From the NCBI GenBank assembly GCA_903813345.2, contig CAIIXF020000001.1, positions 58,330,270 to 58,394,269 on the forward strand: a stretch of DNA of 64,000 nucleotides, in the 5' to 3' direction. Of this stretch, positions 4,970 to 64,000 are shown one piece after another. The translations under genes were made by a program, and so were the position numbers. Each line of letters starts with the position of its first letter. Position 1 is the stretch's first letter. The DNA is from Owenia fusiformis. Taxonomy: Eukaryota; Annelida; Polychaeta; Sabellida; Oweniidae. The notes under the pieces were generated by a model. It was not told where the DNA came from, made no database searches, and saw nothing but the letters and a program-made list of their open reading frames with translations.

Positions 4970-6420
4970 TCAGGATATAACGTATACGTCGTACGAAACT
5001 TGGGACAATTAGCGTAACATAACTCTTTATAAACAGTGGCCTGATAGGGCACGAATAGGCTCATAATGTCAAAAACGAGCGTTACATCTTTTTTAGTTTT
5101 TGTCAGTTTAAAAAAAAGTGATTTAATTTTATCTTTAGACAAACATGATGAAATTTACAGAAAAACAAGATCTCGAAGAGAATATTTCTAAAATGTGGTT
5201 TGAATCTTGAAAAACGATCGTGTCAAATCAAAAATCGATACGATTGAACTTTTAGGTAAAAAAACGATTGCAATACATTTGATTAACACTCGTAACCAAC
5301 TACCCCACATCTTAAAGGCGTCAATCTGAGAAAATTCAAAAATTGAGGGCCTTGCGCAATTGTGACGTTAAAAACGTACATGTTCCATTGAAGAAAATGT
5401 GAAGTTTTAGCAAGATTTTGATGATTAATTCTAAAGTTATCCCAATTTCGACGCTCTGTAAGTCACCCTATGCAGACAGAGCCTGTGGGAAATATTGGGT
5501 GCGGAGCAAATGAGCGGAGGGTGCGGAGCTAACGGTCATTTTTGAATTTAAATTTGGGATATTTCTGAAACTAAGCCGTTTTAGGACTTCAAATATACCA
5601 AGATATGTGTATTTGACACCAAATATCAATACAATTGTGAAAATAGTAGCGCAATTCATTCTATAGCGACGCAGTGTGCCTTAAACCTTTCTCAGACCTA
5701 TATCTTTTGAAATTATCCTTTTAATACTGAGTCCCCAGCATTCATAAAAAATGGTGTTCAAGGTACACTATCTATACAAATTATTTTTGCATCTTGGAAG
5801 CCAGGCAGTATCTGTGTGATTTTATAAAAATTCGGAAATGTTTTTCAGATATGAGCCCCCTCTAAATATTGGATGCGGAGCAGCTCCATAAACGTACCTC
5901 CGCACCCAATATTTAGAGGGGGCTCATATCTGAAGAACATTTCCGAATTTTTATAAAATCACACAGATACTGCCTGGCTCTCAAGATGCAAAAATAATTT
6001 GCATGGGTAGTGTATCTTGAACACCATTTTTTATGAATGCTGGGGACGCAGTATTAAAAGGATAGTCTCAAAATATATAGGTCTGGGAAATGTTTAAGGC
6101 ATACTGCGTCGCTATAGAATGAATTGCACTACTATTTTCACAATTTTATTGATATTTGGTGTCAAATACACATATCTTGGTATAATTGAAGTCCCAAAAC
6201 GGCTTAGTTTCAGAAATATCCCAATTTTAAATTCAAAAATGACCGTTAGCTCCGCACCCTCCGCTCATTTGCGCCGCACCCAATATTTCCCACAGGCTCT
6301 GTCTGCATAGGGTGTAAGTGTGAAGGGTTACGTCTCACAATGTATTTGACGACGTCGTGGTATATCTAACTTCGAAAATATGTAAGATCACATCATGCAC
6401 CCTTTGACGTTTTGGACGTT
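4970..6420. repeat. Dispersed repeat, copy 1, split by a foldback element
   Basis: 4978-5463 joined to 6315-6410 matches 26292-27025 (for example 'gggacaattagcgtaacat', 'aagatctcgag', 'attctaaagttatcccaatt' against 'atttcaaaagttatcccaat', and 'tatttgacga'). Family unknown. Confidence 0.7.
5464..6314. mobile_element. Foldback element, 851 bp, CAC ends, 5-bp target duplication
   Basis: Two arms of about 420 bp in inverted orientation around a spacer near 5878-5895. Ends CACCCTATGCAGACAGAGCC / GGCTCTGTCTGCATAGGGTG. Flanked by 'taagt' at 5459-5463 and 6315-6319. The related copy at 26957 lacks the element and has a single 'taagc', confirming the borders. The mirrored 63-codon ORFs in the arms are artefacts. 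Confidence 0.92.
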
Positions 6421-7540
6421 GCATTATTTTTTCACAAAACAAAATTTAAATTGTAATTGAGAATCACTGGCGTGCTTTTTGGAAAGATTGCTTCTAACAG
6501 TTAACACCAACTGTCCCTTCTCCTATTCTACTTATAATACCTCTATAAGTTGCTATTGTATAGTTTCAATCTGTCAGGCTTAGGGAAGTTACCATTGAGT
6601 CTAGTTCAGTTAATCTGCCATTACTACTAAGTCTATGTAGTTCAGTTCAGTTACCAATTTATCTAGCTCAGTTAAGTCGCTCTTGATATACTTTACTCGT
6701 ATTTCTTAAAATCCACAACCAAAGCTAACAAATATGAGGCGGGCGATTAAAGAGAAGTATTAGTATTTTAAGACGTTATCGGAAAATGAATTTTAAAACT
6801 GAGGAAACAGGAGTTATATCCAAAAGTTTGTGACTCTCTGATATCCGAAAGTCTTAATGCGACCGATATATGATATATAAGGTGGCTAGTAGTACTGGTT
6901 ACGCCCCTGGGTTCTGCGCAATTTCTAAGAGAAATACTATATATACTAGACAAAACGTTAATACGTCTGACGTAAACCAGAGATAGGATTCATTTCACAT
7001 TATACTACTCCAGGCAGTACATCGATTTATAGAAACAAAAAGGGTCTAATTATTTTTATTCCTATGAACTAATACCTGATGGGTTGGTCGTATCCGCGAA
7101 CGTTTATATAGGCTCACCAGAGCGAGAGTCACAAGATTAATCACAGTTTCCCATGGAAATTTTCTCCCCAAGACAATTAGGTATGGCCAATTGATTACTT
7201 TGGGCTTTCTACTTTGGTTGAGCAACTTAAAGAGCATTGAATTTGATTCGGTAAGTGAATAAACGGAAGATTCTGAGATACAATATACAATGGGAGATGG
7301 TATTTAAGATCAATTCTGAGAGCAAATGACACGTGCAAGAATATCTCTAGCATGTGAGCTATAATTATGGTAATATCAATAATAATATACGCTTTTCTCT
7401 ATTCTGCTGACGTACACTCGAAGCGATGTTTTATATTTAGTTCTTAGTGTCTTTTGTTCAGCGTAATTAATGATTTTCTAAGAAGACAGTAGATATACCA
7501 TTCTTAGAAAAAACATACATTATGAATATATGATATACTT
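6421..7540. other. No feature recognised
   Basis: AT-rich, no repeat structure or credible exon. Confidence 0.5.
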
Positions 7541-7549
7541 GTTACGCGG

Positions 7550-8130
7550 TAAACACGATACAAAAATATGCCATATTCCGCAACGAATATGGCATATTCA
7601 CTTGCTGTGTATGACAGATTCACCTGCGGTATATGGCATACACAACAAGCAATGAGAACGTGGTACGGAAGTACGCAATTGTCAAGTAAAACTTTATGAA
7701 TTATTATAATTATTACTGAATCAACAGTACAGTTTATCGAATATATCAACGTATGCAGAAGTATCACTCACCAATCTCACGTAATAAACTTACCCAATCA
7801 ATCCAGGATTCATATATTAGTACTCGACGCACAATAATGGTAATCCAGCGTAGTTTTACATTTAGAGTCGATTCTCGCAACCAATCAAAACCAAGTCTTT
7901 CTGTATCACGTATTCACCTGCGGAAAATGTCATATTCACCTGCTGTATACGGCATATTCTGCAGGTGAGTATCGGGTATTCACTGAAATCAATGTATCGC
8001 ATATTCACTGCGGAATATCGCATACTCACTTGCGGAATATGCCATATACCGCAGGTGAGTATGGCATATTCACCGTATCACAAATACTGCGCAACCATGA
8101 ATGTATGCCATATTCCGCGTGACAATGCTC
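7550..8130. repeat. Clustered GGCATATTC-ACCTGCGG-AATATGCC motifs
   Basis: At least ten degenerate copies in both orientations (for example near 7570, 7610, 7915, 7935, 7960, 8000, 8030, 8050, 8105). Each full motif is nearly self-complementary. Confidence 0.75.
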
Positions 8131-8419
8131 ACGTAAATCGTGGTATGAAAATTATACAAAGAGGCCTATTTGGTTTTAAGATAAATTCAATATAGAATAA
8201 TGTCATTATTTTTATATCACTGTCCTTATCGACGTTATCCCTGTTACAAGCTTAGGCTTATTTGGGCAGCGTCCACTCGGTATCAGTATGTCTTTAAATT
8301 GTGGGTTAAACGGTCACGTTGCTATCGATTGGGCTTTTGATCAGATTAGGCTAGGCGTCTTCACCATTGTCCCCTTTAGGTGAATTCATCAAACTTACTT
8401 ACGTGTATGCATCTATTAC

Positions 8420-8560
8420 GTCTCGGTCACATTTGCTCTACGACGGCCGTAGTTTCACAAAATCGATATAGAAAATCTACACCGTACTGCTTATCCCTAA
8501 AGCTACGACCGCTGTACGGTTACCGTAGATCAAATGTGTCTGAGGCAATTACGTTCACTT
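8420..8560. repeat. Inverted repeat with ctacgaccgc/gtacggt motif, copy 1
   Basis: Contains 'cacatttgctctacgacggc' and, inverted, 'ccgtagatcaaatgtg', with 'tcgatatagaaaatctacac' inside. A related copy lies at 19795-19925. Probably a small MITE family; the borders are not fixed. Confidence 0.6.
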
Positions 8561-8814
8561 TTGAACTATGAAACAGGATAAACGGTTTTTACCAGGGCAT
8601 TTGCCATAATCGGATGAGAATATATTAGCTAACAAGCGTTGAGAGGTTTTTGACATCCAAGTATTAAACAAGTTGACATCGTGTCCTCAGGCTTATTAAT
8701 AGATCGACTGCTTACATCACGATGCAGGTAACAAATTAGAGAACAAGCATCACAGAATGAATAAATAGAATGCTGACATTATAACGATTTGCCTTTGTGT
8801 AATCAAGGAATTAG

Positions 8815-8893
8815 GCCTAATAGCTTAGTTGGAAGAGCATCTTCCTCCGGTTCACAGGTTCAAGTGGTTCCTGGTTCGATTCCCGGTTTAGAC
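8815..8893 (+). pseudogene. tRNA-like sequence (degenerate tRNA or SINE head)
   Basis: Shows an A-box (TAGCTTAGTTGGAAGAGC) and a B-box (GGTTCGATTCCC) with partial acceptor pairing (5 of 7) and a 4-of-5 T stem. The anticodon region carries extra bases and does not form a clean arm, so it is not called as a functional tRNA. Confidence 0.4.
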
Positions 8894-9627
8894 GAAAGAA
8901 CTGCATTGCATTTATGACCATTAAAGTGCACCTGATGGAGTTATTTAAATATTGTATAAAAGGCGGTGGAGAGAAAATGAATGTAATGTTTGGAACCGTT
9001 TCTGGCTTGACTATTTGACCTCTAATATATCGATGGATTGATAGGGGTTTTCACTGGAACATTTTTCTTAGATGAATTCTTCATCAAATGCAAATCTCTC
9101 CAAAGTAAATGTTAGCATAGATTGATAAAGGAAATGGTATCTAATATTTTCAATTATAACCAAACATTTCTTTCCTGCTTTGGGAAGCATAAACAGTTAG
9201 CAGATACACTTAATGAGTTTATTAGATGTACCAAGAATCCATGGCATAAGCGGCCGCTTGTTTATTATAGTAAGTCACATGAGAAACGTAACTGTGATTA
9301 AAATAATATTTTATTGTGGCTCAGGGATAGATTACACTGATATGAGTTATGGTATACAATTGTCAAAAAGGTGATTTGTCAAACCCATTCTCTTATTTCT
9401 GAATCATGTTTATAAATCATTATTTAGGTTCTGTACCGTTTATATAAACCATTGTTTTATTTCCATATCATCCTTGCTGCAAGGGTATTTTACAAGTATA
9501 TACCCTTGCTTCTCTCTATTCAATTGTTGGGCTTGTGCAAACAAACTGGACATTAAACAATATTAGCCTACACCACTGTACCCTAAGAGAACTACTAGAC
9601 ACAATGTACAAGGTTAATTATAATCCT
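8894..9627. other. No feature recognised
   Basis: AT-rich; nothing supported. Confidence 0.5.
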
Positions 9628-52300: not shown

Positions 52301-55300
52301 TACTACTTTTCGAGTTATAGTAAAATACGTTAAAATGGCGGCCATTTTTCAAAATGGCCGCCTTCTACCAAAAGTGTCTTTAGACAGTGTGCAATGTTTA
52401 TAGTATTCACATACCAAATATGAACAAAATCGCTCCACTACTTTTCGAGTTACAGCAAAAATCGTAAAATAACAAGTAAAGGCTGCCATGTGCTTTTTTA
52501 ATATCTACATTGTAGCTTTATTAATGTCCTTTATAATTTTTTTACATTTAAAACATATTGCTATTACAGTTTTACATATTATACCTAAATTACTGTAAAA
52601 TCGGCACTAAAATGGCCGCCATTTTGAAATGAGCGGCCATTTTGAAAATCGGCTTTCGAGCAGAACTTCTACCCCTATAGTGTATATGTGTACATAATAT
52701 GAACAAAATCGGGCCAACGGTATTTGAGTTATTGCCCGGACGGACGGACGGACGGACGGACATACGGACGGATGGAGGCGTTCCCTATATCCCTCCGAAC
52801 TTCGTTCGATGGGATAATAAGGAAACGAGAAAAATCGTACCTTCCGGATGTTCCGACATTTTGTTACCAAAATGAATCGTTTTGGTAACCAGCGTAATCG
52901 AGTGGATCACCAGTGACAGAACTGATAGTACAATGGGAACCATGGTCAATGTTTTTCTTTGAACAAAATTGTTGTTTTACTATCCATGAAAATTAGCTTT
53001 ACCATAAAAGTAGTCACTTGCACACCCCCTCAAAGTTAGACTGTATAATAGAAATAATAATTAATAATAATAAAAAGATTTAAACAATACTACACCTCTT
53101 GGCACTATTATGTCTGCATAAGTCATGGTAGGCTCGATATAGTGTTCAAAGGCAGGTTTCACAAACTGTGTATATTGCTTGAGGACACCTTCTATTTCCC
53201 GACCTCGTTCTGTGATGTCACGCTTAAGACGACGAGCAAGTCGTATGTCAGAGTCTGTTTCTACAAAAATCTTCATGTCCATCATCTGGAACAAAGATTT
53301 TAGATCTCAAGAACCCTTATTGAGAAAAATATATTACCGGATTTTCTCGCATATAAGCCCTGGGCGTATAACTGAAAGAAGGGGTAATTTCGTCTGATAT
53401 TTTACCTCTTATTTTTCGCCCATTGGCGTATAAGTGTACTACTTTCGATTTTTGGCACAGTGGGCGTAAAGGTGAGAAGAGCTGATCTTCCTCAAAGACT
53501 ACAGTACCTACTGTTGTAGTCCTACCGCATGTTTTGTAAGAATTATGAAGGAAATGTCACCTACAACCTTGGACTTAATGTTGAAACAAAGTAACAGAAC
53601 GATCCACCACTGTCACTTACGGCACAGCGTTGAACTTAATGTTGAAACAAAGTAACGACAGAACGATCTGCCAGTGACAAAATACTCTTGAATTTATTGA
53701 AAAAATCAATAAATAGTCATTTTTATAGGCCCATGGGCGTATAAGCGTACTACATTCGATTTTTGGCCCATGGGCCTAAATTTAGGGGGGCGTATATGCG
53801 AGAAAATCCGGTAACATTTAATATTTCAGGCCCTTTTATAGGACAGAAAATAATATTCTGGGTCATGTTATTTCAAATTGTCATCTGGTTGATAAAGTGG
53901 GATACTTTGATGTCTTGATGAGAGCTTGGGAGATTTATGTTGCATATAATATTTTAGCCTTTCATATACAAACATAGTAGTACTTACGTCTCTCAATGAA
54001 GCTGTATTAAATGACATGATTCCTTCAAATATCACCACATTAGCACCATAAATAGTTTTCTGCAAATTCAAAATTGAACATTACATGACATTTGGATATT
54101 CAAGACATATACTATTTACAGCTGACACACGTAGTAGAGTTCACGACCTCTGTCAGTCAGTCCCATGATGTTGACATGGCCACATCATGTTGTGAATCTA
54201 TGATATTATTTGAAAAGTGTCAACAATCTGATGTGAATACACTTTGTTTTAACCTTAAGTAATTATCGACGCATAGAGGAAAGTTTAGAGGTTAATGTCA
54301 TGGATGAAGTAATCATATTCCCAAATTAGGAAATTAATTAAGGATTAACAAATATGCGAATTTACAAAGGCCGTCGATCCCACATGTGCGAGTTAGCAGT
54401 AATGTAGTTTTGAATAGATCTTTCTGAAAACACGGTTGGTAAGTAGAACATATTATTTTGTTCCTAGTTTTCCTTGGGATGTGGAAGGCATGCATGTAAG
54501 AAGAATGTTTGTGAACGCTAAAAGTTGTTATGACAGACTATGACTGAGAAAGGTAGTTCAACAGTTCACCAATTTCGAGGATCCGATGTGTAGGCTCATA
54601 ATGATTATTCTGGTGCTAGGACCCTTAATGTCAGTCTATAATGATTCTAAATCATGACAGACTTAACTTTACATTAACTTTACCTAATTTCCAATCTGAC
54701 GCCAAAGAGAAATGAAGACCCATTATTATAACACTCATTAAGCAATCTGGCGAAACAATAATATTATATAACATTAGTCAGACAGTTATTGGGGAGATAG
54801 CAGTTTTAGTAGACCTCAGTGCTTTTGCCTGCAAGATACCTGAGGGGGGGCAAGGGATAGACAGGACCCTATAGTTAGTTGCAAGGTACCTCACTACTGG
54901 TAGCTCATGCATATACACGTAAGACCCCATGTTTGTTTATAAGGCAGCTAGATGCCATAGTTTTACAAGGCACCCAGAGAACGGTGGTATTGAGACTGTA
55001 GATCTCCAGTTTTCTTTGGGAGACATCTGACAAGTGGTGGCCAGAGAGTTTGCAGACCCCGTAGTGTTATTTTTTATTTTTTTGAGGCACCTGATGAGTG
55101 GTTTTTTTTGAGGCCCCTGATGAGTGGTGGCCTGATAGTTTGTAGATGTTTTTTTGTGAGGCACCTGATGAGTGGTGGCCTGAGAGTTTGTGGACCCCCT
55201 AGTTTTTGTGAGGCACCTGATGAGTGGTGGCCTGAGAACTTGTAGATCCATAGTTTTTTGTGAGGAACCTGACGATTGGTGGCCTGAGAATCTGTAGATC

Positions 55301-58300
55301 CCCTAGTTTCTTTTGTGAGGGACCTGACGAGTGGTGGCCTGAGAATTTGTAGATCCCCTAGTTTTTTTGTGAGGCACCTGATGAGTGGTGGCCTGAGAGC
55401 GTGTAGATCCTGTAGTTTTTGTGAGGCACCTGAGAAGTGGTGTGAAATTATAGAATCATTTGACTTACCAAATTCATAACCATACTAGCATGTTTTCAGT
55501 GGCATCCGTGTCGATCTTAAATGCTGAAAACTGACCAAGGGCCAGGCCGCTAGCGTTGCGATGCTAGTAAATCCATTACTCCCATACCCTTTGCATGGAA
55601 ATTACCTCACTTACACCTAACCATATGAAAGTGCAGCTGAGGCTAGAAACAAACTTTGAGAATCAAGTAAAATCAATATAAACCAAATAAGGGTCAAAAC
55701 TATTTGTTAATCTTTTTCTTCACGCAGTCATTCATTTCAACCCTGTTTGGCCACCCGGATTGTTGATAAGATATTTTTGATTTCTCTCTGAAGTAATATA
55801 ATTAGAACCATAGAAACAATATAGTGAAAGAAATATATTCTATATTTTCCCCGGCTGTAATTTTCAATCAGGGCATGCCTAACATTATTAACACAATTAG
55901 CCGACAATACATTTTTTGAAATCAGGATGTCAGTATATATGGATAGAAGTGACACCATATATTTTTTTTCTCTTAGCCCACTGTTGCAACACAGAATTGC
56001 CACCACAGACCACACAGTAAGCTCAGGAGCTCATTTTCCAAAATTTGAGTCACTGGAAAGTTCAGATAAACCTAAAACTCAATCCATAAGTTATGGGAAT
56101 CACCACATATTTACATTTTCTATCTCACTTTCCCTCCTAATCACCAATACCATTGTATACTTGAATTGGAACGGGTTCTTTGATACATAGCAGCAGGAGT
56201 AGACAATAAAGGACATTGATAATTCAGGGATCATCAGACAGCCCTATGTTTCCCTAATGAGGCTATATACTAATCCCGGTGGCTTAGATCTCTCCATGGG
56301 TACTTAATGCTATTCACATACCATTGTCTGCCAAGGGGTGTAAATCAGATAATTTTTTCCCATCAGTTGGCTTCAGTTGTCTTGTTCCATGTGCCGACAC
56401 ACAAAATTATCATTAGCATTTCCCAGTTGATGCCGGGAAAGTACACATTACCTATCTCCTCTGGAAGAAAAGATCTCCAAGTCAACAACACTTGAAAAAA
56501 TATGTCAACAAAGGAAGTAAAAGAAAGGAAAATGTTTCAGATAATGAAGCATCTCTCAAACCTGGACAGTCACTTGGATGATGACGAATTATTATCATTT
56601 GAAAATGGGGATAATCTAACAGGTCTGTCCGTCGAGGAATTGAAGGAGGGGACGTTATCCCTAGGTTTTACCAAGGAAGAACTTGAGGAACTTTGCAAAA
56701 TGTCAAGAACAGATCAAAACAACCAGTGCGAAATGGTTAGATTGGCCCACTCTGCCTTATCTATCCACAAGGACGCTCAAGTTGAGAAACCAAAAGCCAA
56801 AAAGCCTAAGTTGGACTCAGTTGAAGAACAGGTCAGTCTTAAATGTTTGCTAGTCATAAGGTTTATTACCCTCGCATTTTTATTTTAATTCAGTTCTATG
56901 CCGCCTCTTTAAAATAAAAACGAACAATAAATTAACAAAATAAATGAATAAATGTAATTAATTAATTGATGATTTAATAAACAAAATTAGATAAACCACC
57001 TTGTAAATAATGGGAAGTTTTCAATCGCGCTTATAATTCTTAATATTCAACTCTATCATCAATCACAACCTAATATGCTTACCCCTAAATCACATATCAT
57101 TCATCCCTTCTTAATATGTTTACTCAAATGCCTCAGAGGAGAGACTAATAGATAGTGTTTCATTCATTCAGCCATAATGAAGTTAAGATGTCGATAAACT
57201 GGTAATTCATATATACCCCTTTATCTCATAAATCCCAAGCGTTATTATCCTCAATCCTTTTTATTCGCCCTAACATCAACAATAAACAAATGAATAAATT
57301 GTTGCGATATAAGTCCCACTCGCAAACTGTTTTCATTCTTAAGGTAGTTAAGAGGTAATGGAGTGTTTTATTAGTTATAGTTGTAGTTATTCACTGCTAG
57401 GTCATTCTGAGATTCAATTTTAAAACAAACAAACATTGAGCATGGTTAAGCATAGACCCCCTTAATTGACCGAATACATGACTACCTCAAAGCTCTGTAG
57501 TCATATCTTGTAGGTTGGTTCTCCCATAATTTGGCTTAATCCGAGTTCCAACAATATCACTTGATTAAATAAATCAAATAAAATTGCTTCAATCTATCAT
57601 TCCAGGATATACCTGGTAAATCACTTATTCGAGCAAGAATGGAACATTTAGACTCCCTCCTCCTTGACTCCAGATACGAAAAACAAAAAAGTTCCCTACA
57701 AATAGAACTCGAAAATTTTTTACTAAAATTCCACCCTCCAAAAGACCTTCAATCAGCCACACCCATGGATGTGAGGGTTTTCATAGTCAGCAAAGACCAC
57801 AAGGGTAAAACTGTTACCCATCTACCATCGTGTAACAATGAATCAGACTGTAATTGCCCCAAATCCCTGTCAGCGGGTTCCGTGGATAGTTTAATTGGTA
57901 AAATTCGAGCTATCTTCCGAGATAATGGTAGAGACATTGACAATCCAGCTGCATCCCCTATAATCAAATCACACCTTAAGGCAGTGAGGTTAGAACAATC
58001 AAAAGCAGGAGTGTTACCTAAAAAGGCAATTCAAGTTCAATTCCACAAATTAAACAAGATAGTGCATCATATTAGATACAAATTGAATAACCCCAGGCTC
58101 TCTACCTTACAAAAATACGTCCTTTTGAGAGATGTGACTTTCTTCATAATTATTGCTCAGTCAGGCGACAGGGCTGGGGATCTGGGACAGTTAAGACTTA
58201 ACAACATCATAGTGGCTCCAGATGAATCGATAATTCAAATTACTCTTACAATGGGCAAAACCACCAAAGTAAATTCTCCAAGAGTCATGATCTTACCTAA

Positions 58301-61300
58301 ATCAGATGGCCCTTTCTGCCCAGTAAGCGCATTTAAAACATACAATTCATTTCTCAATGAAAAAAACTTACAACAAACCGGATATTGCTTCAAACCACTC
58401 CTACCAGATAATAAATCATTATCGCTTGACCGTCCATTCTCATCTTCCTTGGCCAACGACAGATTAAAGTCTTACCTCACGCACTTAAAACTATGGCAAG
58501 GGGAATCATCACATGGAATCCGGCGCAACGTAGCATCCACCTTGATGCTTTTGGGGGTTTCCAATGAGGGAATAAAAGCACACATAGGCATCAACATGGA
58601 CAGTGTATTAAGAACTTATATAGCTCCAGCCCATTCCAAACTACAATTATCCACCTCAAAAAGTTTATCTGATAACATGGCGAAACTAAGTAAATAATCA
58701 ATCCCCCTTGCCAGTACTTTACCCAGGTTCAAAACATAATTTAAAAACACACACTTCATCCTGCATTTTTCAGTTAAGAGCTCTCAAATCAGAGTTACAA
58801 AGTGTGCAAAAAGCCCAGGGCTCCGACTCCGTTGCTTCAATTTTACGAGAGGTAAAGGAGTATGCAGCTAGGCGCGACCCAGACACAGAGGTCCTCCATA
58901 ACAAGCTCTCTGCCCTGGACCAGAGAGCGCGCTTAGCAGGTCACAAAGATGCAGACACCTATACCCACGTATTTGCGAGATTCATGGCAAACAAATCAAG
59001 TCGGAAAATCGGGGCTTTAGTTTCCAGCCTGCTGGCTACCAAAGCTGAGGCCGCTGTCATTGACAGGGAGCTCAAGTTTTTCAAAGCGCACCCCTCCTCC
59101 TCAACTAAAACACCCACCACCTCAGATCGCTGGAACACAACCAACAAGGGGGAGGGTTTTGGAAGAAATCGTCTTTCAATAGTATGCTGGATCTGTAACA
59201 AATCGGGTCACAGGTCATTTGAGTGCACTTCAAGAAAGCAAGATAATTAGGCAAACAGCTATGGAGAACAGTTTCATATCCAGCCATAAAACAATTTCAA
59301 TCTCTTTGCACAAAGGTGATAACCAACACTCTTGTTTCAGGACTATCCCTTGCAGTTGGCCAATACAAACATCAGAAGCTCTACACAAATTCCCTATGTA
59401 AACATTGGTGGAAAACCACTAGACTTAAACTCAGGTCATGTGCCAATGGAAGAGGCCCCCCTTTCAGGACACGTGAACATATTATCTATACCACTACCAG
59501 ATCCCAACTACTTTGTGGCTGGTAATGTACACAACTATTTACATAATTGGGATACTATAATACCAAAGGACTCAGGTAATAGAGACAGTATATTAGACTG
59601 GATAACCAACTGTGTCAATATTCATGATTTCATGGTTCCATTTAAAGGAGAATTTCAAGGTCAGCAACTTAACCATTCATTCCCACCTACAAGGGCATTT
59701 AGTAACACAAGTAAATGTGATGGTTTTGAGGAATTTATTGATGAGGAGATCCTATCAAGAGTGCAATCAGGGGCAATCACTTTCCTAGGTAAGGTTGGAG
59801 AAGTTTTACCCCCTCATATAATTAGTCCCCTTACAGTGGAGCCTAACAAGCCACGCTTATGCATTAGTCTCAGGTATTTAAATTGCTTCATGAGAGATAC
59901 ACCATTTACTTTAGACACTTTAAACGAAGTACCTAGAATTTTATCTGAAACCTCAAAAATGACAATTTTAGATGATCGTAAAGCCTATGATAATATCTTT
60001 ATTCATGAATCATGTAGAACTTTGACTGGATTTAGGTGGAGAGATTGTTATTTTGTCTGCAACACTCTGCCATTTGGCTGGAAAAACTCAGCGTATGTGT
60101 ATCACTCTATCAATTTAATAGGTATATCATATCTTAGGAAAATGTCAGTCTCTGCTTTGTTGTACATCGACGATAGGTTAGTTGAACACTACAATGGAAA
60201 ACTGACGAGCGAATCTGACAACAACCAAAGAGCCACCTTAGCTATCTACATGGCAACAGAATTGTTCTCCAGGCTCGGATATTTCATTGGCATCAGCAAG
60301 TCAGTTTTCCAACCAGTGGACTCCATTGTGTTTTTAGGTCTTATTTGTGATGCAAAGAAACTAGCTTTCTTTATTCCCCAAAACAAAAAAGAAAAGTTTG
60401 CTACCTTAAGGGAATATATTTTAAGTCAAACTCATATCGAACTAGAAACACTTCAAAGTTTTGTGGGCCTAATAATTAGTTTCACACCCGCTATTCCAGC
60501 TGCAAAGTTGTATACCTCCTCCTGCAACATAGCTATTGCAAAGTCGTCTGGCTCTTCCATTCCTATACAGGGCTCATTAGAACAAGAAATAAAATATTGG
60601 AGGTACCTAGATGAATGGAACAGTCACATGTCCTGGCAAAGTGAAAAACATGAAGTAATTCAGATTTTTACAGATGCAAGTAATCTTAAATGGGCAGGTT
60701 TGACTAAATCCAGTGAGGTTTCAGATTATTGGCTTGAGTCAGAACAGGGACAAGATATCATGGTGAAAGAAGCCATGGCACTGCTAAAAACCTTGGAATC
60801 CATGAGCAATCAATTAGATAACAAGCGCATTGACGCAAAAGTAGATAGTCAAGTACTCATTTATAGTTGGAAAAAACAAGGGTCCAGGTCCCCCGAATTG
60901 AATGAAGTCATGAAACAGATTTTTCATTTCCTGCTAAACCACAATGCCTCCTTGAAACTCGAATATGTTCCCTCAGCCGAAAACTTAGCAGATTTTCCAT
61001 CAAGAAAGCTAAACAAGACAGACACAATGCTGTCTAAGGCCAGTTGGCTAAGAGTGCAACAAGCATTTGGTGGAAAATCTGGACACACATTTGACGCAAT
61101 GTCTCTTGACAGCAATGTAATGACAGGATCTAGCAATTTACCCCTCCCCCATTTCACGCCCTCTGCCACACCTTTATCAAACGGAGTTAATTTCTTTTGC
61201 CAAAATCTGTCTCCTGATCAAAATTATTACATCTTTCCACCTTTTGGCCAAATTGCAACAGTTCTACATCACGTCCTTAAAGAAAAAGTAAGTGCCACCA

Positions 61301-64000
61301 TTATCGTACCTGCTTTAGAACCAGCTCCAACGTGGTTAAATTCGCTATCTTCACATTCAGTGGGATGTGTGGTCCTAGGTTTCAAAGGTGATAAACATGC
61401 TCTTAAATTCCCAACCAAAAAAGGTTTCCAACCTGACTCTAAAGGCCTCGTAACCAATCTTATTGCAGTCCGAGTCCATCCTGATTTCCAACCAAACAGC
61501 AATGAAACCCTTTCTGCTATGTATTCCAATCAAATATCTGACTGCAGAGTGTTGTTGTTAGGGGACTCTATGCTAAGATTTGTGAAATTAGATAACCCTA
61601 TGGTACAGGTATCATCCTTCTCTGGAGCTAAGATTCAAGATATAAACAATGTATTACAATCCACATTAAACCGCTTGCAACCATTGTTCTTATTATTGCA
61701 TATTGGTACAAATAACCTTAACAAACACTACAGCCAAGTACATAAAGCATGTAAACACTTTGAAGAACTAGCAGAAGTCATTACCTCAAATGTAAACATC
61801 ACGGTAATTATCTCAAGTGCAATCTCAACCAGTTCAGAGAGTGTAAATTTGAAAGTACAAGCATTTAATCATTTTATAGCATCATTATGTGCAAACAAGA
61901 CATGGTCATTCTTATCTCACAGTAATGTATTGTTGGAAGATTTAGCAGATGGTCTGCACCTAAATAGGAGAGGGCAGATTAAATTCATGAACAATATAAA
62001 TGAGGTTATTAATCTATCTTAAGTCTACCAGCCACTCAGTGTCCCCATCATTCCAGTGCACCAACTTACTATATTAAAAATGTAAAAGACAGAAAGGTAG
62101 TTATATCATTGCGCTTTACAATGTATGTAGTGCAAGACATTTAGTTTAAACAAGGACTTTGAGACTCTAACTTTTGACAGGCTGTGAAATTGTTTACGTA
62201 GAATTTGTATTTGTGTTATCACCATTTGACTTGTTGTAATAAACATTTTGGCTGATGACAATAGACCAGAACCATCATTTTTATGTTAACTTTAATGTCT
62301 GTTACAAGAAAGAAATAACAGTTCATTCTGATGTTGGATGAGTATGATGAGGTTTGAATGTTAAATGTGTATTGGAATCAGGATAGCAGATATAGTATGT
62401 ATCGCAGATATGGGTATGTAAGTGAGTGTAGTTCATGAATGTTGGGTATATGAACGGTGTGCGCATTTTCTCCATATCTTACATAATAAGTGAACTCTAT
62501 TAGGGAAGCTGTTAATAGAATACTATTTACAGCTGACACACGTAGTAGAGTTCACGACCTCTGTCAGTCAGTCCCATGATGTTGTGTTGGTAGACTTTGT
62601 GTTGGGAGGTCCTATCCACATCTCAATGACAGTATGCTGGGCCCCGTAGCCAATCATTTGATCTGAAGTATAGCCAATTCTGGCCCCGTTGCCAATTATT
62701 TGACCTGAAGTATAGCTAAAAAAAATTAAAAAAAAATAAAATAAAAAAAATAGTTGAATAAAATAACTGGAGGGGGGGGGTCCAAATCCGACAATTTTTA
62801 CCCACACTCACAATAAGCACTGAAACTGTAGAACAACTGCATAATCGTGAAAGAACACCCTCTAGATACGGGCCCAGTATCCTTTGTTCTCACCATAACC
62901 AGAACCTGTAGTATGTGAGAAATGCACGTCACGAGGTTTAGTGTAGCAGTAGCTAGTTCGTTCATAGCCATTTTCAGCCCCTGCCATTCACAAGAGTACC
63001 CACAACAAAAAGTCTATGCCATGTCGACGATAACTCAAGTAGCGGCACACAATACGGTAAAGTATAGCGATACCTCCAGATACACAAGGTGACAGCAGCA
63101 CAACCAGATAACCTTACATGAAACAACTCCGCCTGGGAATATGGTGAGTACAGAGCATTTACAACCTTTTCAGATGAGCCCCTCTGCACTCCTGCTTATG
63201 GAAGGACCTGCAAAGTAAGTCTAACAGCTCTCCTCAAAAGGGTACCCATCACTATTCGGGCAAAATACTTGGGGTGAGTATCTCTCTTCATTCAGATAGA
63301 AGCAGATAAAAACGCGACAGTTCAAGGTGAATATATCAAATAAAAATTTAAAAATGAAGAAAATAAATAAATCAAACATCATAACATAACAGAAAAATAG
63401 CACAAGTAGCTGGTAGCTTATAGCATTAAGAACACAAAGTGTGTAAACAATCATGAAAGTAAAATTAACGAACTCAGACAAATAAAGAGTCAAAGGTGGT
63501 TGACACTTTTCTAGAACAAGGTTATTCTTAGGGTTTCACTTATTCGCGCATTTTCTCCATATCTTACATAATAAGTGAACTCTATTAGGGAAGCTGTTAA
63601 TAGAATACTATCACCTGTAAATATAATACATGTAAATAGAAAAACTAGTAAAATTGCTGTGTGAGACTCTTGTGAATATGATTAAATAAAAAGAAACTAC
63701 CCCTGTGATGATTAAAATAAAGATGAATTAACCATCTATTATGGCCGTATAGTTGTAACAGCATTTTATTTTGGGCGCCAAAACATGTATTTAAAGATAA
63801 TCGAAACTTAAAATGGAAAAATTTAATTACTACATATGTCAGCACATTACAATGCACATGTTTATTTACCTTTTCTTTCTCTCTTGCATGTGTGGTGAAA
63901 TTATACACAGGAACTTCAATAATTTTCCCATCCTTCATTCGTTGTAATGTTGCTTCTAGTAGGTCAAAGTCAAAGGCATCTGGGTGGTCAAAATTGTACT
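37278..64000 (-). CDS. UCKL1: Uridine-cytidine kinase-like 1, ten 3' coding exons (5' end beyond the window)
   Basis: Joined exons, in gene order: 64000-63870, 54059-53988, 53285-53096, 47523-47462, 47100-46985, 46045-45952, 44335-44273, 43006-42718, 42188-42090, 37354-37278. They give 396 codons and a stop with every junction in phase and every intron GT-AG. The N-terminal part (window residues about 1-150) is uridine kinase: [42 protein letters not shown] and INLIVQHVH are family motifs. The C-terminal part (about 185-396) is UPRT-like: [33 protein letters not shown], the PRPP-loop equivalent [11 protein letters not shown] (about 301-311), and [13 protein letters not shown] at the end. Members of the family phosphorylate uridine and cytidine in pyrimidine salvage; activity of the UPRT-like half in animals is uncertain. 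The ATP-binding P-loop lies outside the window. Large introns carry most of the mobile DNA seen here. No exon is broken, so the gene looks functional. Confidence 0.94.
37355..40384 (-). other. UCKL1 last intron, unique part
   Basis: AT-rich intron without supported exons. The stretch near 39440-39610 echoes the text after the 35-bp array at 2697-2977 (gacaatttaaagtggcagc, agatatccgaaatggaaataactg), a dispersed repeat fragment. Confidence 0.5.
40385..41300. repeat. 83-bp GATGATACACTA minisatellite
   Basis: About eight to ten near-identical copies built from smaller gatgat and cacta motifs, for example 'atatatgaggatacaccc' and 'gatgaagacacactatg'. Intronic in UCKL1. No coding potential. Confidence 0.92.
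41345..42087 (-). repeat. 43-bp minisatellite derived from a UCKL1 exon end plus splice donor
   Basis: Sixteen copies in the intron next to exon 42090-42188. On the minus strand the unit reads from GTAAGTGAAG through TTAATGATTGCTACC and ATACTACCAGGCATTG; the latter two blocks are coding sequence ([11 protein letters not shown]) of that exon, whose last copy is the exon itself. GTAAG is kept in all copies; two copies (near 42005 and 42047) lack one G before it. Because the coding segment is conserved in UCKL1 proteins, the exon is the source and the intronic copies are derived. Confidence 0.93.
42090..42188 (-). CDS. UCKL1: UCKL1 penultimate coding exon, source of a splice-site minisatellite
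   Basis: Two bases complete a Gly codon, then 32 codons [11 protein letters not shown] ... [12 protein letters not shown] plus one base. The acceptor is CTTTCAG|GTGTGC and the donor ATTG|GTAAGT. Both borders are duplicated in the flanking introns: the acceptor region occurs again at 42224 and 42261, and the last 36-37 nt with the donor recur 16 times in the next intron. Reading past the donor meets an in-frame stop after GKCS, so only the first donor keeps the protein intact. Confidence 0.93.
42189..42270 (-). repeat. Triplicated 3' splice site of the same exon
   Basis: TTTCAG|GTGTGCATTCT occurs at exon starts 42188, 42224 and 42261 (units of 36 and 37 bp). Use of 42224 would add 12 codons in frame without a stop; 42261 would shift the frame. 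The copy at 42188 matches family alignment best. Confidence 0.85.
42271..42717 (-). other. UCKL1 intron, no further feature
   Basis: Ordinary AT-rich intron sequence between the acceptor copies and the donor at 42717; nothing else seen. Confidence 0.6.
42718..43006 (-). CDS. UCKL1: UCKL1 exon, UPRT-like catalytic core
   Basis: The largest exon in the window, 96 codons plus one base. The acceptor is TTTTCAG|CTGTCT and the donor TCAG|GTAATT. It encodes [24 protein letters not shown], the PRPP-loop equivalent [11 protein letters not shown] and [13 protein letters not shown]. Compared with true UPRT enzymes the loop is diverged, as in other UCKL1 proteins. Confidence 0.95.
44080..44220. repeat. 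Repeat end with gactgacggac run and ctatatccctaccgaacttc
   Basis: Same kind of end as at 52738-52825 and, diverged, 35316-35395. The rest of the intron 43007-44272 shows only a duplicated segment (gttctccaaaccgagaatcgtcc near 43570 and again near 43855) and no exon. Confidence 0.5.
44273..44335 (-). CDS. UCKL1: UCKL1 exon, 21 codons
   Basis: The acceptor is ATTTCAG|CCAGTC; it encodes [20 protein letters not shown] plus K. The donor is AAG|GTCAGT, slightly off consensus. It corresponds to the 'V-TPQG-Y-GK' strand of the UPRT-like fold. Phase 0 on both sides. Confidence 0.91.
44360..45775. repeat. 121-bp tandem array split by a MITE
   Basis: About eight copies of a unit with 'cctatgtaccatattttctc', 'tagcccc' and 'cacagtattaataatc'. 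Two variants (cccatatattagtagg and ctcatatattaatagg) mostly alternate, showing a dimeric higher-order unit. Interrupted at 44669-45160. Within a UCKL1 intron. Confidence 0.9.
44669..45160. mobile_element. MITE, 492 bp, TA-flanked, inserted in a tandem array
   Basis: TIRs CTGTAAAACGGGTA ... TACCCGTTTTACAG. TA on both sides. The uninterrupted neighbours in the array read 'atcatatatctaacc' at the same place, so the insertion point and the TA duplication are directly visible. The interior is built of 'aattttagcg' motifs in both orientations. No ORF. Confidence 0.88.
45952..46045 (-). CDS. UCKL1: UCKL1 exon, UPRT-like domain start
   Basis: The acceptor is ATTACAG|AAACAG; one base completes an Arg codon, then 31 codons: [20 protein letters not shown] and on to LLPHK. 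The donor is AAA|GTAAGC. The [16 protein letters not shown] stretch is strongly conserved in UCKL1. Confidence 0.93.
46046..46984 (-). other. UCKL1 intron, no further feature
   Basis: 939 bp intron, GTAGTT...TTACAG. No repeat or exon recognised. The 361-bp intron 47101-47461 is likewise plain. Confidence 0.6.
46985..47100 (-). CDS. UCKL1: UCKL1 exon, linker into the UPRT-like domain
   Basis: The acceptor is GTTTCAG|AGAGGG and the donor is GTCAG|GTAGTT. 38 codons plus two bases; it begins [13 protein letters not shown] and ends [11 protein letters not shown](R). The segment corresponds to the variable linker and then the 'R-G-M-H-T-I-I-R' type start of the second domain in UCKL1 proteins. Confidence 0.9.
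47462..47523 (-). CDS. UCKL1: UCKL1 exon, end of the kinase domain
   Basis: The acceptor is TTTCTAG|GTGGTG; two bases finish a split Gly codon, then 20 codons, [20 protein letters not shown]. The donor is AAG|GTAGAA. The NLIVQHVH motif is a family hallmark. It is too short for simple ORF detection and was found by continuing the frame of the previous exon. Confidence 0.92.
48401..48606 (-). mobile_element. 5'-truncated SINE, copy 2
   Basis: Matches the tail of the SINE at 24611-24930 in reverse orientation (for example GTCGAGTTGAAGAACTGGTA and GCCAGCGCCAGCCTTTTATC). The tRNA-like head is missing, as expected for incomplete reverse transcription. Confidence 0.8.
48829..49285. mobile_element. 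Palindromic MITE-like element
   Basis: Arms 48829-48920 and 48935-49015 pair (GAATATGGGTTTTATTCC, ATATGATATTGACC) around a centre 'gagggagcgcagcgaccg'. A second part (49016-49285) carries ATACGATTTTT-CCCGGGGACA direct repeats and ends TATTATGGAATAAA, the inverse of TTTATTCCATAATA at 49014. No coding potential. Confidence 0.6.
49366..50374. mobile_element. TIR element with TCAACCCC tandem ends
   Basis: Left 49366-49505 and right about 50230-50374 are inverted copies starting GGTCATCTCAACCCCAAG and made of short repeats (AGTCAACTCAACCCC, GTAAAACTCAACCCC). The interior of about 700 bp is AT-rich and includes a patch (49795-49985) with 'tagccaggaggggtgcg' and 'tggctatgcccctgg' in inverted arrangement. 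No ORF. The target duplication is unclear. Confidence 0.65.
50538..50580 (+). promoter_or_regulatory. NRF1-like site and TATA box in an intronic element
   Basis: TGCGCATGCG is followed about 30 bp later by CTATAAATAG. The pairing looks like a core promoter, but no ORF follows on either strand. Chance is likely. Confidence 0.2.
51690..52825. repeat. Tandem array with AAAATGGCGGCC palindromes, copy 2
   Basis: Inverted relative to 1-1190. Unit of about 135 bp with 'ccaaatatgaacaaaatcgc', 'acttttcgagttatagtaaa' and pairs of AAAATGGC/GCCATTTT. It ends in a ggac tetranucleotide run (52738-52770) and ctatatccctccgaacttcg, an end also seen in other repeats of the window. Confidence 0.85.
53096..53285 (-). 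CDS. UCKL1: UCKL1 exon, kinase lid region
   Basis: The acceptor is TTCCAG|ATGATGG and the donor is CCAAGAG|GTGTAG. It encodes 63 codons plus one base: [20 protein letters not shown], then [13 protein letters not shown], and ending IIVPR. The arginine-rich RLARRLKRD segment is the kinase lid. The next exon completes a Gly codon, giving VPRGGEN. A MITE lies 51 bp upstream of the acceptor. Confidence 0.94.
53337..53811. mobile_element. MITE, 475 bp, TA-flanked
   Basis: Terminal inverted repeats begin CCGGATTTTCTCGCATATAA and match the right end CGTATATGCGAGAAAATCCG(G). Flanked by TA on both sides. Internal sequence repeats parts of the termini (gcgtataag, ttcgatttttggc) and a direct duplication near 53565-53670. 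No ORF. Tc1/mariner-type by the TA target; the exact superfamily is not settled. Lies in the UCKL1 intron. Confidence 0.8.
53988..54059 (-). CDS. UCKL1: UCKL1 exon, 24 codons
   Basis: The acceptor is TTTGCAG|AAAACT and the donor is GAC|GTAAGTAC, both strong. It encodes [15 protein letters not shown] and on to LRD, the Walker-B-like strand region of the kinase. Phase 0 on both sides. The intron before it (54060-63869) holds the retrotransposon; without that insertion the intron would be about 310 bp. Confidence 0.94.
54060..54108 (-). other. UCKL1 intron remnant left of the retrotransposon
   Basis: The 49 bp between the exon acceptor and the element's left end include the polypyrimidine tract. 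The insertion is therefore very close to the acceptor, yet splice signals remain intact. Confidence 0.6.
54109..54173 (+). repeat. Split direct repeat A1 (left terminus)
   Basis: Identical over 65 bp to 62520-62584. It begins with the core 'atactat'. Outside it the sequence is UCKL1 intron, 49 bp from the exon. Confidence 0.9.
54174..56501 (+). other. Retrotransposon 5' untranslated region
   Basis: 2.3 kb between repeat A1 and the first ORF. It contains a degenerate 53-bp tandem array (54840-55445) and otherwise no coding signal. A promoter for the element should lie in this region, but no convincing TATA box or initiator could be chosen. Confidence 0.6.
54840..55445. repeat. 53-bp minisatellite inside the retrotransposon leader
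   Basis: About nine copies of a unit around 'ggcacctgatgagtggtggc ... tagttttttgtga'; the central copies are best conserved and the outer ones decay. An open frame on the minus strand through it is a by-product of the repeat and not a gene. Confidence 0.85.
56502..56831 (+). CDS. Shared 5' exon of the retrotransposon (110 codons)
   Basis: Starts at ATG 56502 and runs 110 codons to GAA CAG|GTCAGT, a phase-0 splice donor at 56832. The protein is acidic ([28 protein letters not shown]) and ends in a basic stretch [10 protein letters not shown] that could be a nuclear signal. I recognise no domain; a Gag N-terminus is the best guess. Unspliced, the frame would read on to a stop at 56888. Three phase-0 acceptors follow: 57606 (recombinase), 58774 (CCHC ORF) and 59341 (RT ORF). 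It could therefore supply the start codon to all three, which matters because the RT ORF has no ATG near its start. Confidence 0.65.
56832..57605 (+). other. Predicted intron of the retrotransposon
   Basis: Runs from GTCAGT to a pyrimidine-rich tract ending CATTCCAG. The 774 bp are AT-rich, full of stops and show no coding signal. Both borders leave phase 0. Confidence 0.6.
57606..58697 (+). CDS. Tyrosine recombinase (YR) of the retrotransposon
   Basis: Open from the acceptor at 57605/57606 (11 codons, [11 protein letters not shown]), then an internal ATG at 57639 and 352 residues. Numbering from that Met, the N-terminal part carries a Cys-rich segment (C65, C71, C73) followed by [20 protein letters not shown], found in eukaryotic YR elements. 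The catalytic set is complete: R178 (GDRAGDL), H292-x-x-R295 (HGIRR), H315 (AHIG) and nucleophile Y327 (LRTYI). It would integrate the circular cDNA by strand exchange at the 'atactat' core. It lies upstream of the RT, unlike in DIRS or Ngaro, where YR comes last; as I recall, VIPER of trypanosomes has YR before RT. The stop is followed after 10 bp by the ATG of the CCHC ORF. Confidence 0.9.
   Translation, partial: DIPGKSLIRARMEHLDSLLLDSRYEKQKSSLQIELENFLLKFHPPKDLQSATPMDVRVFIVSKDHKGKTVTHLPSCNNESDCNCPKSLSAGSVDSLIGKIRAIFRDNGRDIDNPAASPIIKSHLKAVRLEQSKAGVLPKKAIQVQFHKLNKIVHHIRYKLNNPRLSTLQKYVLLRDVTFFIIIAQSGDRAGDLGQLRLNNIIVAPDESIIQITLTMGKTTKVNSPRVMILPKSDGPFCPVSAFKTYNSFLNEKNLQQTGYCFKPLLPDNKSLSLDRPFSSSLANDRLKSYLTHLKLWQGESSHGIRRNVASTLMLLGVSNEGIKAHIGINMDSVLRTYIAPAHSKLQLSTSKSLSDNMAKLSK
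58774..59250 (+). CDS. Gag-like CCHC zinc-knuckle protein of the retrotransposon
   Basis: The open frame has an ATG at 58708, but a strong acceptor (ATTTTTCAG) at 58773 falls in phase 0 inside it and is preferred here. From that point [12 protein letters not shown] continues the SVEEQ end of the 5' exon as one predicted coiled coil, typical of Gag. Then an alpha-helical region ([35 protein letters not shown]) and near the C-terminus a zinc knuckle C-x2-C-x4-H-x4-C ([14 protein letters not shown]). The likely role is RNA binding and particle assembly. If the ATG at 58708 were used instead, the protein would be 180 residues. Its stop is TAG at 59248. Confidence 0.75.
   Translation, partial: LRALKSELQSVQKAQGSDSVASILREVKEYAARRDPDTEVLHNKLSALDQRARLAGHKDADTYTHVFARFMANKSSRKIGALVSSLLATKAEAAVIDRELKFFKAHPSSSTKTPTTSDRWNTTNKGEGFGRNRLSIVCWICNKSGHRSFECTSRKQDN
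59341..62022 (+). CDS. Reverse transcriptase - RNase H - SGNH hydrolase polyprotein
   Basis: The frame is open from codon TTG 59332 to the stop at 62022 but has no ATG at its start; the acceptor CTTGTTTCAG|GACTAT at 59340/59341 is phase 0, so a spliced start is inferred. Numbering from 59332: RT with motif A (LDDRKAYD, D214) and motif C YIDD (278-281), preceded by [19 protein letters not shown] as in DIRS-type RTs; RNase H with D448 (TDAS), E480 (KEAMAL), D505 (VDSQ) and D554 (ADFPSR); a post-RNase H segment [19 protein letters not shown] ... WLNSL also seen in DIRS/Ngaro proteins; and at about 738-896 an SGNH hydrolase with GDS (744-746), GTNN (792-795) and D873-x-x-H876 (DGLHLNRRG). All key residues are present. 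SGNH domains are known in some Ngaro elements; here it is fused in one frame to the RT. Confidence 0.92.
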   Translation, partial: DYPLQLANTNIRSSTQIPYVNIGGKPLDLNSGHVPMEEAPLSGHVNILSIPLPDPNYFVAGNVHNYLHNWDTIIPKDSGNRDSILDWITNCVNIHDFMVPFKGEFQGQQLNHSFPPTRAFSNTSKCDGFEEFIDEEILSRVQSGAITFLGKVGEVLPPHIISPLTVEPNKPRLCISLRYLNCFMRDTPFTLDTLNEVPRILSETSKMTILDDRKAYDNIFIHESCRTLTGFRWRDCYFVCNTLPFGWKNSAYVYHSINLIGISYLRKMSVSALLYIDDRLVEHYNGKLTSESDNNQRATLAIYMATELFSRLGYFIGISKSVFQPVDSIVFLGLICDAKKLAFFIPQNKKEKFATLREYILSQTHIELETLQSFVGLIISFTPAIPAAKLYTSSCNIAIAKSSGSSIPIQGSLEQEIKYWRYLDEWNSHMSWQSEKHEVIQIFTDASNLKWAGLTKSSEVSDYWLESEQGQDIMVKEAMALLKTLESMSNQLDNKRIDAKVDSQVLIYSWKKQGSRSPELNEVMKQIFHFLLNHNASLKLEYVPSAENLADFPSRKLNKTDTMLSKASWLRVQQAFGGKSGHTFDAMSLDSNVMTGSSNLPLPHFTPSATPLSNGVNFFCQNLSPDQNYYIFPPFGQIATVLHHVLKEKVSATIIVPALEPAPTWLNSLSSHSVGCVVLGFKGDKHALKFPTKKGFQPDSKGLVTNLIAVRVHPDFQPNSNETLSAMYSNQISDCRVLLLGDSMLRFVKLDNPMVQVSSFSGAKIQDINNVLQSTLNRLQPLFLLLHIGTNNLNKHYSQVHKACKHFEELAEVITSNVNITVIISSAISTSSESVNLKVQAFNHFIASLCANKTWSFLSHSNVLLEDLADGLHLNRRGQIKFMNNINEVINLS
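62238..62243 (+). terminator. Candidate poly(A) signal of the retrotransposon
   Basis: AATAAA 216 bp after the RT ORF stop and about 220 bp before repeat B1. It is the first good hexamer in the sense strand. Because B2 lies further on, a full-length genomic RNA would have to read past it. Confidence 0.4.
62461..62526 (+). repeat. Split direct repeat B1 (internal)
   Basis: Identical over 66 bp to 63546-63611. It ends in 'atactat', which is also the first seven bases of A2. Confidence 0.9.
62520..62584 (+). repeat. Split direct repeat A2 (internal)
   Basis: Identical copy of the left terminus. The B1/A2 junction is what a circle junction of the two outer ends would look like, as in the usual model for these elements. 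Confidence 0.9.
62585..63545 (+). other. Non-coding stretch between A2 and B2
   Basis: About 960 bp with an A-rich low-complexity patch and a run of eight or nine G near 62773. No supported ORF. It is part of the element because B2 closes it. Confidence 0.6.
63546..63611 (+). repeat. Split direct repeat B2 (right terminus)
   Basis: Identical to B1 and ends in the 'atactat' core, after which the UCKL1 intron resumes with 'cacctgtaaa'. Confidence 0.9.
63870..64000 (-). CDS. UCKL1: UCKL1 exon (kinase core, partial at the window edge)
   Basis: The reading frame starts with two bases of a split or cut codon, then 43 codons beginning [14 protein letters not shown] and ending THAREKEK. The substrate-site motif NFDHPDAFD is typical of uridine kinases. 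The donor is AAG|GTAAATAA at 63869. The exon may continue past 64000. Confidence 0.93.

Follow-up and report, generated by a model that had tools for sequence, protein, structure and literature searches.

Candidate splicing of one coding leader exon to recombinase, Gag and reverse transcriptase in an ALOG-type retrotransposon of Owenia fusiformis

Introduction

Retroelements must make much Gag and less enzyme and must keep unspliced genomes, and the usual answer is protein fusion by frameshifting or readthrough. Here we describe a tyrosine-recombinase (YR) retrotransposon of the annelid Owenia fusiformis that lies, with both ends present, at 54109-63611 of a 64,000-nucleotide (nt) stretch of genomic DNA (C1:58330270-58394269, hereafter the window). 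Its gene order is a coding leader exon, a YR that carries an ALOG domain, a Gag gene encoding a CCHC knuckle, and a reverse transcriptase (RT) and RNase H followed by a GDSL-like domain, and each of the three open reading frames (ORFs) that follow the leader begins at its own putative splice acceptor.

ALOG-containing DIRS1-type retroposons have been reported from marine animals and Ectocarpus (Iyer & Aravind 2012, PMC3537659). Like the window element they have a YR with an ALOG domain, a Zn-knuckle Gag, RT-RNase H and terminal direct repeats, but their RT lies upstream of the ALOG ORF, whereas in the window the YR precedes Gag and RT, and there are an attached GDSL domain and a leader with three acceptors. 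The metazoan copies are described in the same paper as inactivated by stop codons. PAT elements (PMC4157794) resemble the window element in their split repeats A1-B1-A2-B2, the zinc finger in Gag (in the Pat1-like form) and the YR, but differ in gene order and expression, and their MT (inactive N6-adenine methylase) region was undetected by profile in the window. SymbioDIRS-Dnmt3 (PMC5890265) is found, as are the elements of this genome, in two structures, with the YR and Pol ORFs ordered differently, but has a DNMT in Pol, and a splice switch is not described in the accessible part of that report.

Single retroelement proteins made from spliced mRNAs are known already; the unusual part here is the dependence of all three ORFs on a single coding leader. 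To our knowledge, foamy viruses have no coding leader common to all of their proteins. Foamy virus Pol is made from its own spliced subgenomic mRNA without Gag-Pol fusion (PMC7828637), as we propose here, but in a retrovirus. The CERV protein of Caenorhabditis elegans Cer1 (PMC10309623) also comes from a spliced mRNA, has N-terminal peptides in common with Gag and a nuclear localisation signal, and its verified acceptor is TTTCAG; however, Cer1 is a long terminal repeat element and, in the text available to us, only CERV is described as spliced. Splicing likewise separates the shGAG mRNA of Arabidopsis EVD from the full-length RNA (PMC8892269), but gives one spliced product in a Ty1/Copia element. 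The first-pass annotation of the window had said that a three-way splice switch would be an unusual expression system, which given these precedents holds for the dependence of three ORFs on one leader and not for spliced retroelement proteins as such. A DIRS1-like gag is inferred to have entered mammalian TMPO and ZNF451 together with its own splice acceptor (PMC4495291), although, unlike the window element, the LAP2alpha exon belongs to a host gene and is DIRS1-like without being shown to be of the ALOG type.

We could find no account of a YR retrotransposon expressed in this way in the literature searched, although one could be in print in reviews (Poulter and Goodwin 2005; Poulter and Butler 2015). 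In the text available to us neither "intron" nor "splic" occurs in PMC3266345 (DIRS overview), PMC3783388 (fungal DIRS) or PMC3537659 (ALOG), the sole "splic" passage of PMC6681497 concerns host genes and PMC4157794 is without "intron".

Results

A leader exon and three phase-0 acceptors

The features of the window element and the acceptors of its relatives are collected in Table 1. The first-pass annotation had read CAG/GTCAGT (the slash marks the splice point) as a phase-0 donor at the end of the leader, and both the sequence and the stop-to-stop frames agree. The three acceptors that it had listed each open a different ORF in phase 0 with no intervening stop. Past these acceptors the first Met is residue 12 of 363 in the YR, 71 of 158 in Gag and 36 of 893 in RT. 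Hence, Gag is left without a plausible start codon, and RT has only a late one; the RT ORF, said earlier to be without an ATG, has none near its start but does contain the Met at residue 36.

We consider it likely that one donor and alternative 3' splice sites give three proteins that share their N-terminal domain. A single pre-mRNA would start upstream of the coding leader exon and the one leader donor would be joined to the YR, Gag or RT acceptor. As all sites are in phase 0, recombinase, Gag and RT-RNase H-GDSL would each be translated, from their own mRNA, behind an identical N-terminal domain of 110 residues, and unspliced RNA would be retained as genome and template. The ORFs, the sites and their phase are read directly from the DNA, as are their conservation in diverged copies and the like design found under another gene order. 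From these we infer the use of the sites, the splice ratios, the export of unspliced RNA and a role of the common domain.

Table 1 Features of the window element and acceptor sites of related elements
Feature	Position	Strand	Remarks
Leader exon	56502..56831	+	110 codons from ATG; basic stretch KAKKPK near end
Splice donor CAG/GTCAGT, phase 0	56832..56833 (GT)	+	all 9 nt shared with L005; GT present at the corresponding place in L008, L007 and L021; lost in L022
Acceptor 1 (YR), phase 0	57604..57605	+	ATCATTCCAG/GATATA; position and phase kept in L005, phase 0 in L007
Acceptor 2 (Gag), phase 0	58772..58773	+	GCATTTTTCAG/TTAAGA; L005 counterpart TATTTTTCAG; L007 ATTTACAG; deleted in L006
Acceptor 3 (RT), phase 0	59339..59340	+	CTTGTTTCAG/GACTAT; identical in L006
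YR exon	57606..58697	+	ALOG DNA-binding domain ~57666-57989; tyrosine recombinase catalytic domain ~58125-58631
Gag exon	58774..59250	+	CCHC zinc knuckle ~59182-59232; Pfam zf-CCHC E 1.4e-4
RT exon	59341..62022	+	reverse transcriptase ~59944-60342; weak RNase H; YIFPPF motif region; GDSL/SGNH-like domain ~61603-61977
A1, left terminal repeat of split direct repeats	54109..54173	+	65 nt; 100% identical to 62520-62584
Tandem array in 5' untranslated part	55010..55442	+	unit ~50 nt; 7 in-register copies
Possible polyadenylation signal AATAAA, common to the mRNAs	62238..62243	+	sequence
B1 repeat	62461..62526	+	66 nt; 100% identical to 63546-63611
A2 repeat	62520..62584	+	100% identical to A1; has ATACTAT in common with B1 end
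B2, right terminal repeat	63546..63611	+	100% identical to B1
Family C acceptors, open phase 0			Gag GCTTCCAG; RT GTTAATAG; YR CCTTTCAG
Family D acceptors, open phase 0			Gag GTTGCAG or GTTATAG; RT CTTGTAG or CCTGTAG; YR GCTTTCAG
L009 acceptors, open phase 0			Gag ACTTTCAG; RT TTATTGCAG
L016 acceptors, open phase 0			Gag AATTACAG (poor tract); RT ATGTTACAG; YR CTTTTCAG

Relatives in the host genome

Relatives were sought in the host genome (498 Mb, 525 contigs) by protein searches with the window YR, RT, Gag and leader and then with the leader of locus L008 and the YR of locus L017. The matches fetched, a subset of all matches, were sorted by similarity into five families: A (the window, L005, L006), B (L007, L008 and the leader pieces L021 and L022), C (L011, L013, L017), D (L010, L012, L014, L015) and E (L009, L016). 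The YR precedes Gag at all four A and B loci in which the two occur together (window, L005, L006, L007), whereas the order is gag-RT-YR at nine of nine loci of families C, D and E, L017 being internally deleted. The RT of L011 is 40% identical to that of the window, and the RT of L009 35%. RT and YR are clearly related across the two groups, and Gag weakly (window-L009 E 4e-4). The copies of family C are 95-100% identical in amino acids in their main matched pieces and 98-99% identical in leader DNA.

Leader homologues have amino acid identities to the window of 59% (L005), 32% (L007) and 30% (L008; window-L008 E 2e-14), and the leader is under purifying selection (dN/dS 0.13, L008-L007). The Gag acceptor had been said to join two halves of one apparent coiled coil. 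Hydrophobic residues at -6, -3, +1, +4, +8 and +11 of the leader-Gag junction do form a 3-4 heptad run, and in L005 all of these places except -6 are hydrophobic. Structure prediction of the leader alone was uninformative (mean pLDDT 47.6).

At L008 the open family B leader exon (2558-2893) is followed by 7 kb that have no YR, Gag or RT similarity; a solo remnant and a captured exon are candidate readings. Directly 3' of the Gag fragment of L005 lie further ORFs (~4343-8927), some repeated, which are perhaps another element inserted in that copy.

Sites are kept in diverged copies of families A and B

The window and L005 are saturated at synonymous sites both in the leader (pS 0.85, pN 0.23) and in the Gag N-terminus (pS 0.88, pN 0.15). 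Nevertheless, L005 leader homology stops at an identical CAG/GTCAGT, YR homology starts at CTTTCCAG/ and Gag homology starts at TATTTTTCAG/, which are the same acceptors as in the window. Of the first 60 intron nt, 57% are identical between the window and L005, and of the next 60 nt 45%; in the 60 nt 5' of the last 20 nt before the acceptors identity is 45% (YR) and 55% (Gag). Random pairs have a mean identity of 52% and a 95th percentile of 60%, and thus the flanking intron (45-57%) is at random-pair level while the sites are kept. The last 20 intron nt are 85% identical before the Gag acceptor and 65% identical before the YR acceptor.

The donor GT is present in five of the six A and B leaders that extend this far (window, L005, L008, L021, L007), and L007 has phase-0 acceptors for YR (TAATTCCAG/TTG) and Gag (CCATTTACAG/CTT). 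The RT acceptor is kept exactly in L006, but the surrounding 1180 nt are ~84% alike anyway, so this identity is weak evidence. Gag is under purifying selection (window-L006 dN/dS 0.24, together with the L005 values above). Between acceptor and first Met the window-L006 ratio is 0.46 over 35 codons in RT. The corresponding stretch of the YR gave a ratio of 2.57 over 11 codons, which is too short to judge, and selection there is not supported.

A like arrangement under another gene order

Families C, D and E also have a leader exon upstream, which ends in phase 0 at TCG/GTGAGT (all four D copies), AAG/GTAAGC (L016) or CAG/GTACCC (C). An open phase-0 acceptor is among the three best AGs at all 11 of the ORF starts scored in these families; phase-0 acceptors stand at the YR start of L011/L017, L010 and L016 and before RT in L011, L010, L009 and L016 (the YR start of L009 is decayed). 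Leaders are similar within the group (C versus D/E profile E 1.9e-5; L010-L016 E 6e-11), and the selection ratio of the D leader is 0.54 over 51 codons. Despite their different gene order, families C-E thus appear to share a like splice design. An apparent further 5' exon precedes the leader exon in family D and in L016. Another phase for the L010 Gag acceptor was ruled out by comparison with L012, L014 and L015, which shows one extra downstream base in L010.

The family C elements have an additional ORF between the leader exon and the Gag acceptor (L011 3207-3821, L013 2260-2889, L017 4924-5577, oriented with RT on the + strand). It has an ATG, a signal-peptide-like hydrophobic start, NST/NSS motifs and a hydrophobic stretch resembling a membrane span. 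Fast-diverging 5' ORFs, one of them encoding a predicted 7-TM protein, have been described for the Ectocarpus element (Iyer & Aravind; PMC3537659).

The starts of the RT ORFs bear on how the downstream proteins could be made. The gag and RT ORFs do not overlap at the four loci measured, where gaps of 72 (window), 289 (L011), 144 (L009) and 433 nt (L010) separate them, and this excludes direct gag-RT frameshifting. Moreover, the RT ORF has no Met before residue 182 in L009 and none before residue 82 in L010. An alternative would be that only Gag is spliced, from leader plus Gag with the YR gene lying inside the Gag intron, while re-initiation or internal ATGs give YR and RT. The coiled coil that spans the leader-Gag junction favors this, as do the Met residues at YR position 12 and RT position 36 of the window. 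We nonetheless regard it as unlikely, because the YR acceptor and its phase are kept in L005, and phase 0 in L007, despite a diverged intron, because RT acceptors exist in C, D and E and because the L009 and L010 RT ORFs have such late Met residues.

The comparison therefore supports the three-way splice switch put forward in the first-pass annotation as far as sequence can: phase-0 acceptors recur in the four other families and a phase-0 donor is found in most copies. The conservation check in related elements proposed with it was run, and the loci read contain no uninterrupted leader-Gag, leader-YR or leader-RT frame.

Phase statistics

For a phase test we took, at 18 ORF starts from families A-E, the AG that scored best within the 120 nt preceding the first conserved codon, leaving out the decayed L009 YR, L006 with its deleted Gag acceptor and additional, near-identical copies of C and D. 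The best AG was in phase 0 at 14 of the 18 starts (p = 1.4e-4 for an expectation of 1/3; p = 0.004 relative to control ORFs, of which 21 of 54 have it in phase 0) and at 12 of 16 (p = 8e-4) when the second copy of family A, which contributes two rows, was removed. A phase-0 site with an open frame was found at 12 of 18 starts and, among the control ORFs, at 10 of 54 (p = 2.8e-4). We treat these values as a guide, since the scoring matrices were not trained on this host and the anchors were chosen by the analysts from protein similarity.

Phase-0 AGs are frequent, so each site taken alone is weak evidence, and the 21 of 54 control ORFs with a best site in phase 0 could be taken to mean that the splice-like signals arose by chance and that the proteins come from frameshifting, readthrough or non-AUG starts. 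This explanation is scarcely credible given the conservation of the sites at saturated divergence, the gaps between the gag and RT ORFs and the excess of open phase-0 sites over controls. The conservation in diverged copies gives stronger evidence than the phase counts.

Points that weigh against splicing from a common leader

Several observations speak against the proposed joining of one leader to three ORFs. Among the donors, the GT of L007 is preceded by CAT, L022 has no GT, and CAG/GTACCC of family C is weak, all three C copies having a higher-scoring GT in another phase at most 180 nt from the end of the leader ORF; the only strong donor of L009 (GTGAGT) is in phase 2, as worked out by hand. 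Among the acceptors, the phase-0 YR and Gag sites of L007 are not its highest-scoring AGs, the Gag acceptor of L006 is gone through a deletion, the L016 gag site is poor (score -4.8) and the YR acceptor reads CGG in three of the four D copies. The best AG in the phase test was not in phase 0 at 4 of the 18 starts, and at 2 more it was in phase 0 but a stop follows. A search with the family C leader led to three places, which are the three known elements, and no spliced-mRNA insertion was seen. The last 8 nt of the window YR overlap the open Gag frame, and a YR-Gag frameshift is possible there; this route was rejected because in L005 in-frame stops separate the YR and Gag ORFs.

Finally, profile comparison of the A/B leader with the C-E leaders gave nothing significant (C E 0.47, D/E E 0.31). 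As there is no significant similarity between the groups, what links their leader exons is only place, phase and role. Divergence may have gone too far for homology to show, or one leader may have been swapped for another. In addition, a Met lies two or three residues past the acceptor in L009 gag, L011 YR and L016 YR, so that the leader could be untranslated or separate in those ORFs. Both observations would fit a scheme in which each ORF has its own promoter and the acceptors serve separate 5' exons or spliced-leader trans-splicing and not a common coding exon. We consider such a scheme very unlikely, since the phase 0 of the acceptors agrees with the phase of most coding leaders, the leader protein is conserved right up to a donor and the window Gag is without an early Met. 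Splicing from a common coding leader remains the reading that we prefer.

Among the loci read, the leader design seems confined to the ALOG group. L018 and L019 have an early ATG in the gag ORF, ordinary overlapping ORFs and no leader match, and by this layout were taken for DIRS1-like elements. A scan of IMG/VR with the RT alignment gave 45 pattern matches and no relative.

Structure and class of the window element

The window element is best explained as an ALOG-type DIRS-group retrotransposon that would be a new variant within a known element class. The YR and the ALOG domain are in one ORF (ALOG_dom E 2.7e-20; E 5.7e-11 to PDB 8p5q, LSH3), the recombinase being matched by Phage_integrase at E 9.8e-4 and 19.4 bits, below the cut-off of 27.1. 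RT-RNase H is present (RVT_1 E 2.6e-7; RNase H matches weak, E 0.04 for RVT_3 and 0.2) without a DDE integrase or an aspartic protease, and there were no integrase-core or protease families among the Pfam matches up to E 1 in the element. The order Gag, RT, YR expected of the class is not that of the window, L005, L006 and L007, where the YR precedes Gag. The split direct repeats A1-B1A2-B2, with the internal B1A2 block at 62461-62584, are those of PAT and Ngaro elements. A host gene with introns was ruled out, since the split repeats are 100% identical and the ORFs are those of an element. Because the repeats are identical between copies, the insertion is probably young.

The MT region, which Ngaro elements lack, had no Pfam match in the window element. 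An FPP motif region downstream of RNase H, presumably linked to the MT domain, is conserved in L009 and L011. The GDSL/SGNH-like domain (Lipase_GDSL_2 E 5.1e-5, under the curated cut-off) is fused to the window RT ORF, and in the alignment the RT ORFs of L009 and L011 stop before it. Some DIRS elements are reported to have hydrolases without an assigned role (PMC6681497).

The sequence ATACTAT (62520-62526) is common to the A1 start, the B1A2 overlap and the B2 end, as expected for a recombinase core site. The AATAAA lies upstream of B1, and mRNAs ending there would be without the internal repeat needed by genomic RNA; the choice of poly(A) site may thus separate mRNA from genome.

Discussion

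What the common domain does is a matter on which we can offer a tentative and rather doubtful proposal. The leader, with its basic stretch and a coiled coil that would be complete only in the Gag mRNA, could be a common assembly tag that brings the enzymes into the Gag particle without Gag-Pol fusion. As every ORF has its own phase-0 acceptor, the genes and even the leader could then be interchangeable cassettes, which would let the YR shift between last and first place with expression kept.

The splice design agrees with the capture of a gag together with its splice acceptor inferred for TMPO and ZNF451 (PMC4495291). It also raises the question of whether some of the stop codons of the "inactive" metazoan ALOG-DIRS copies (PMC3537659) fall in introns. 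If true, one coding leader with three acceptors would be a further answer to the need of retroelements for much Gag, less enzyme and unspliced genomes, and would explain how the gene order of a family could change.

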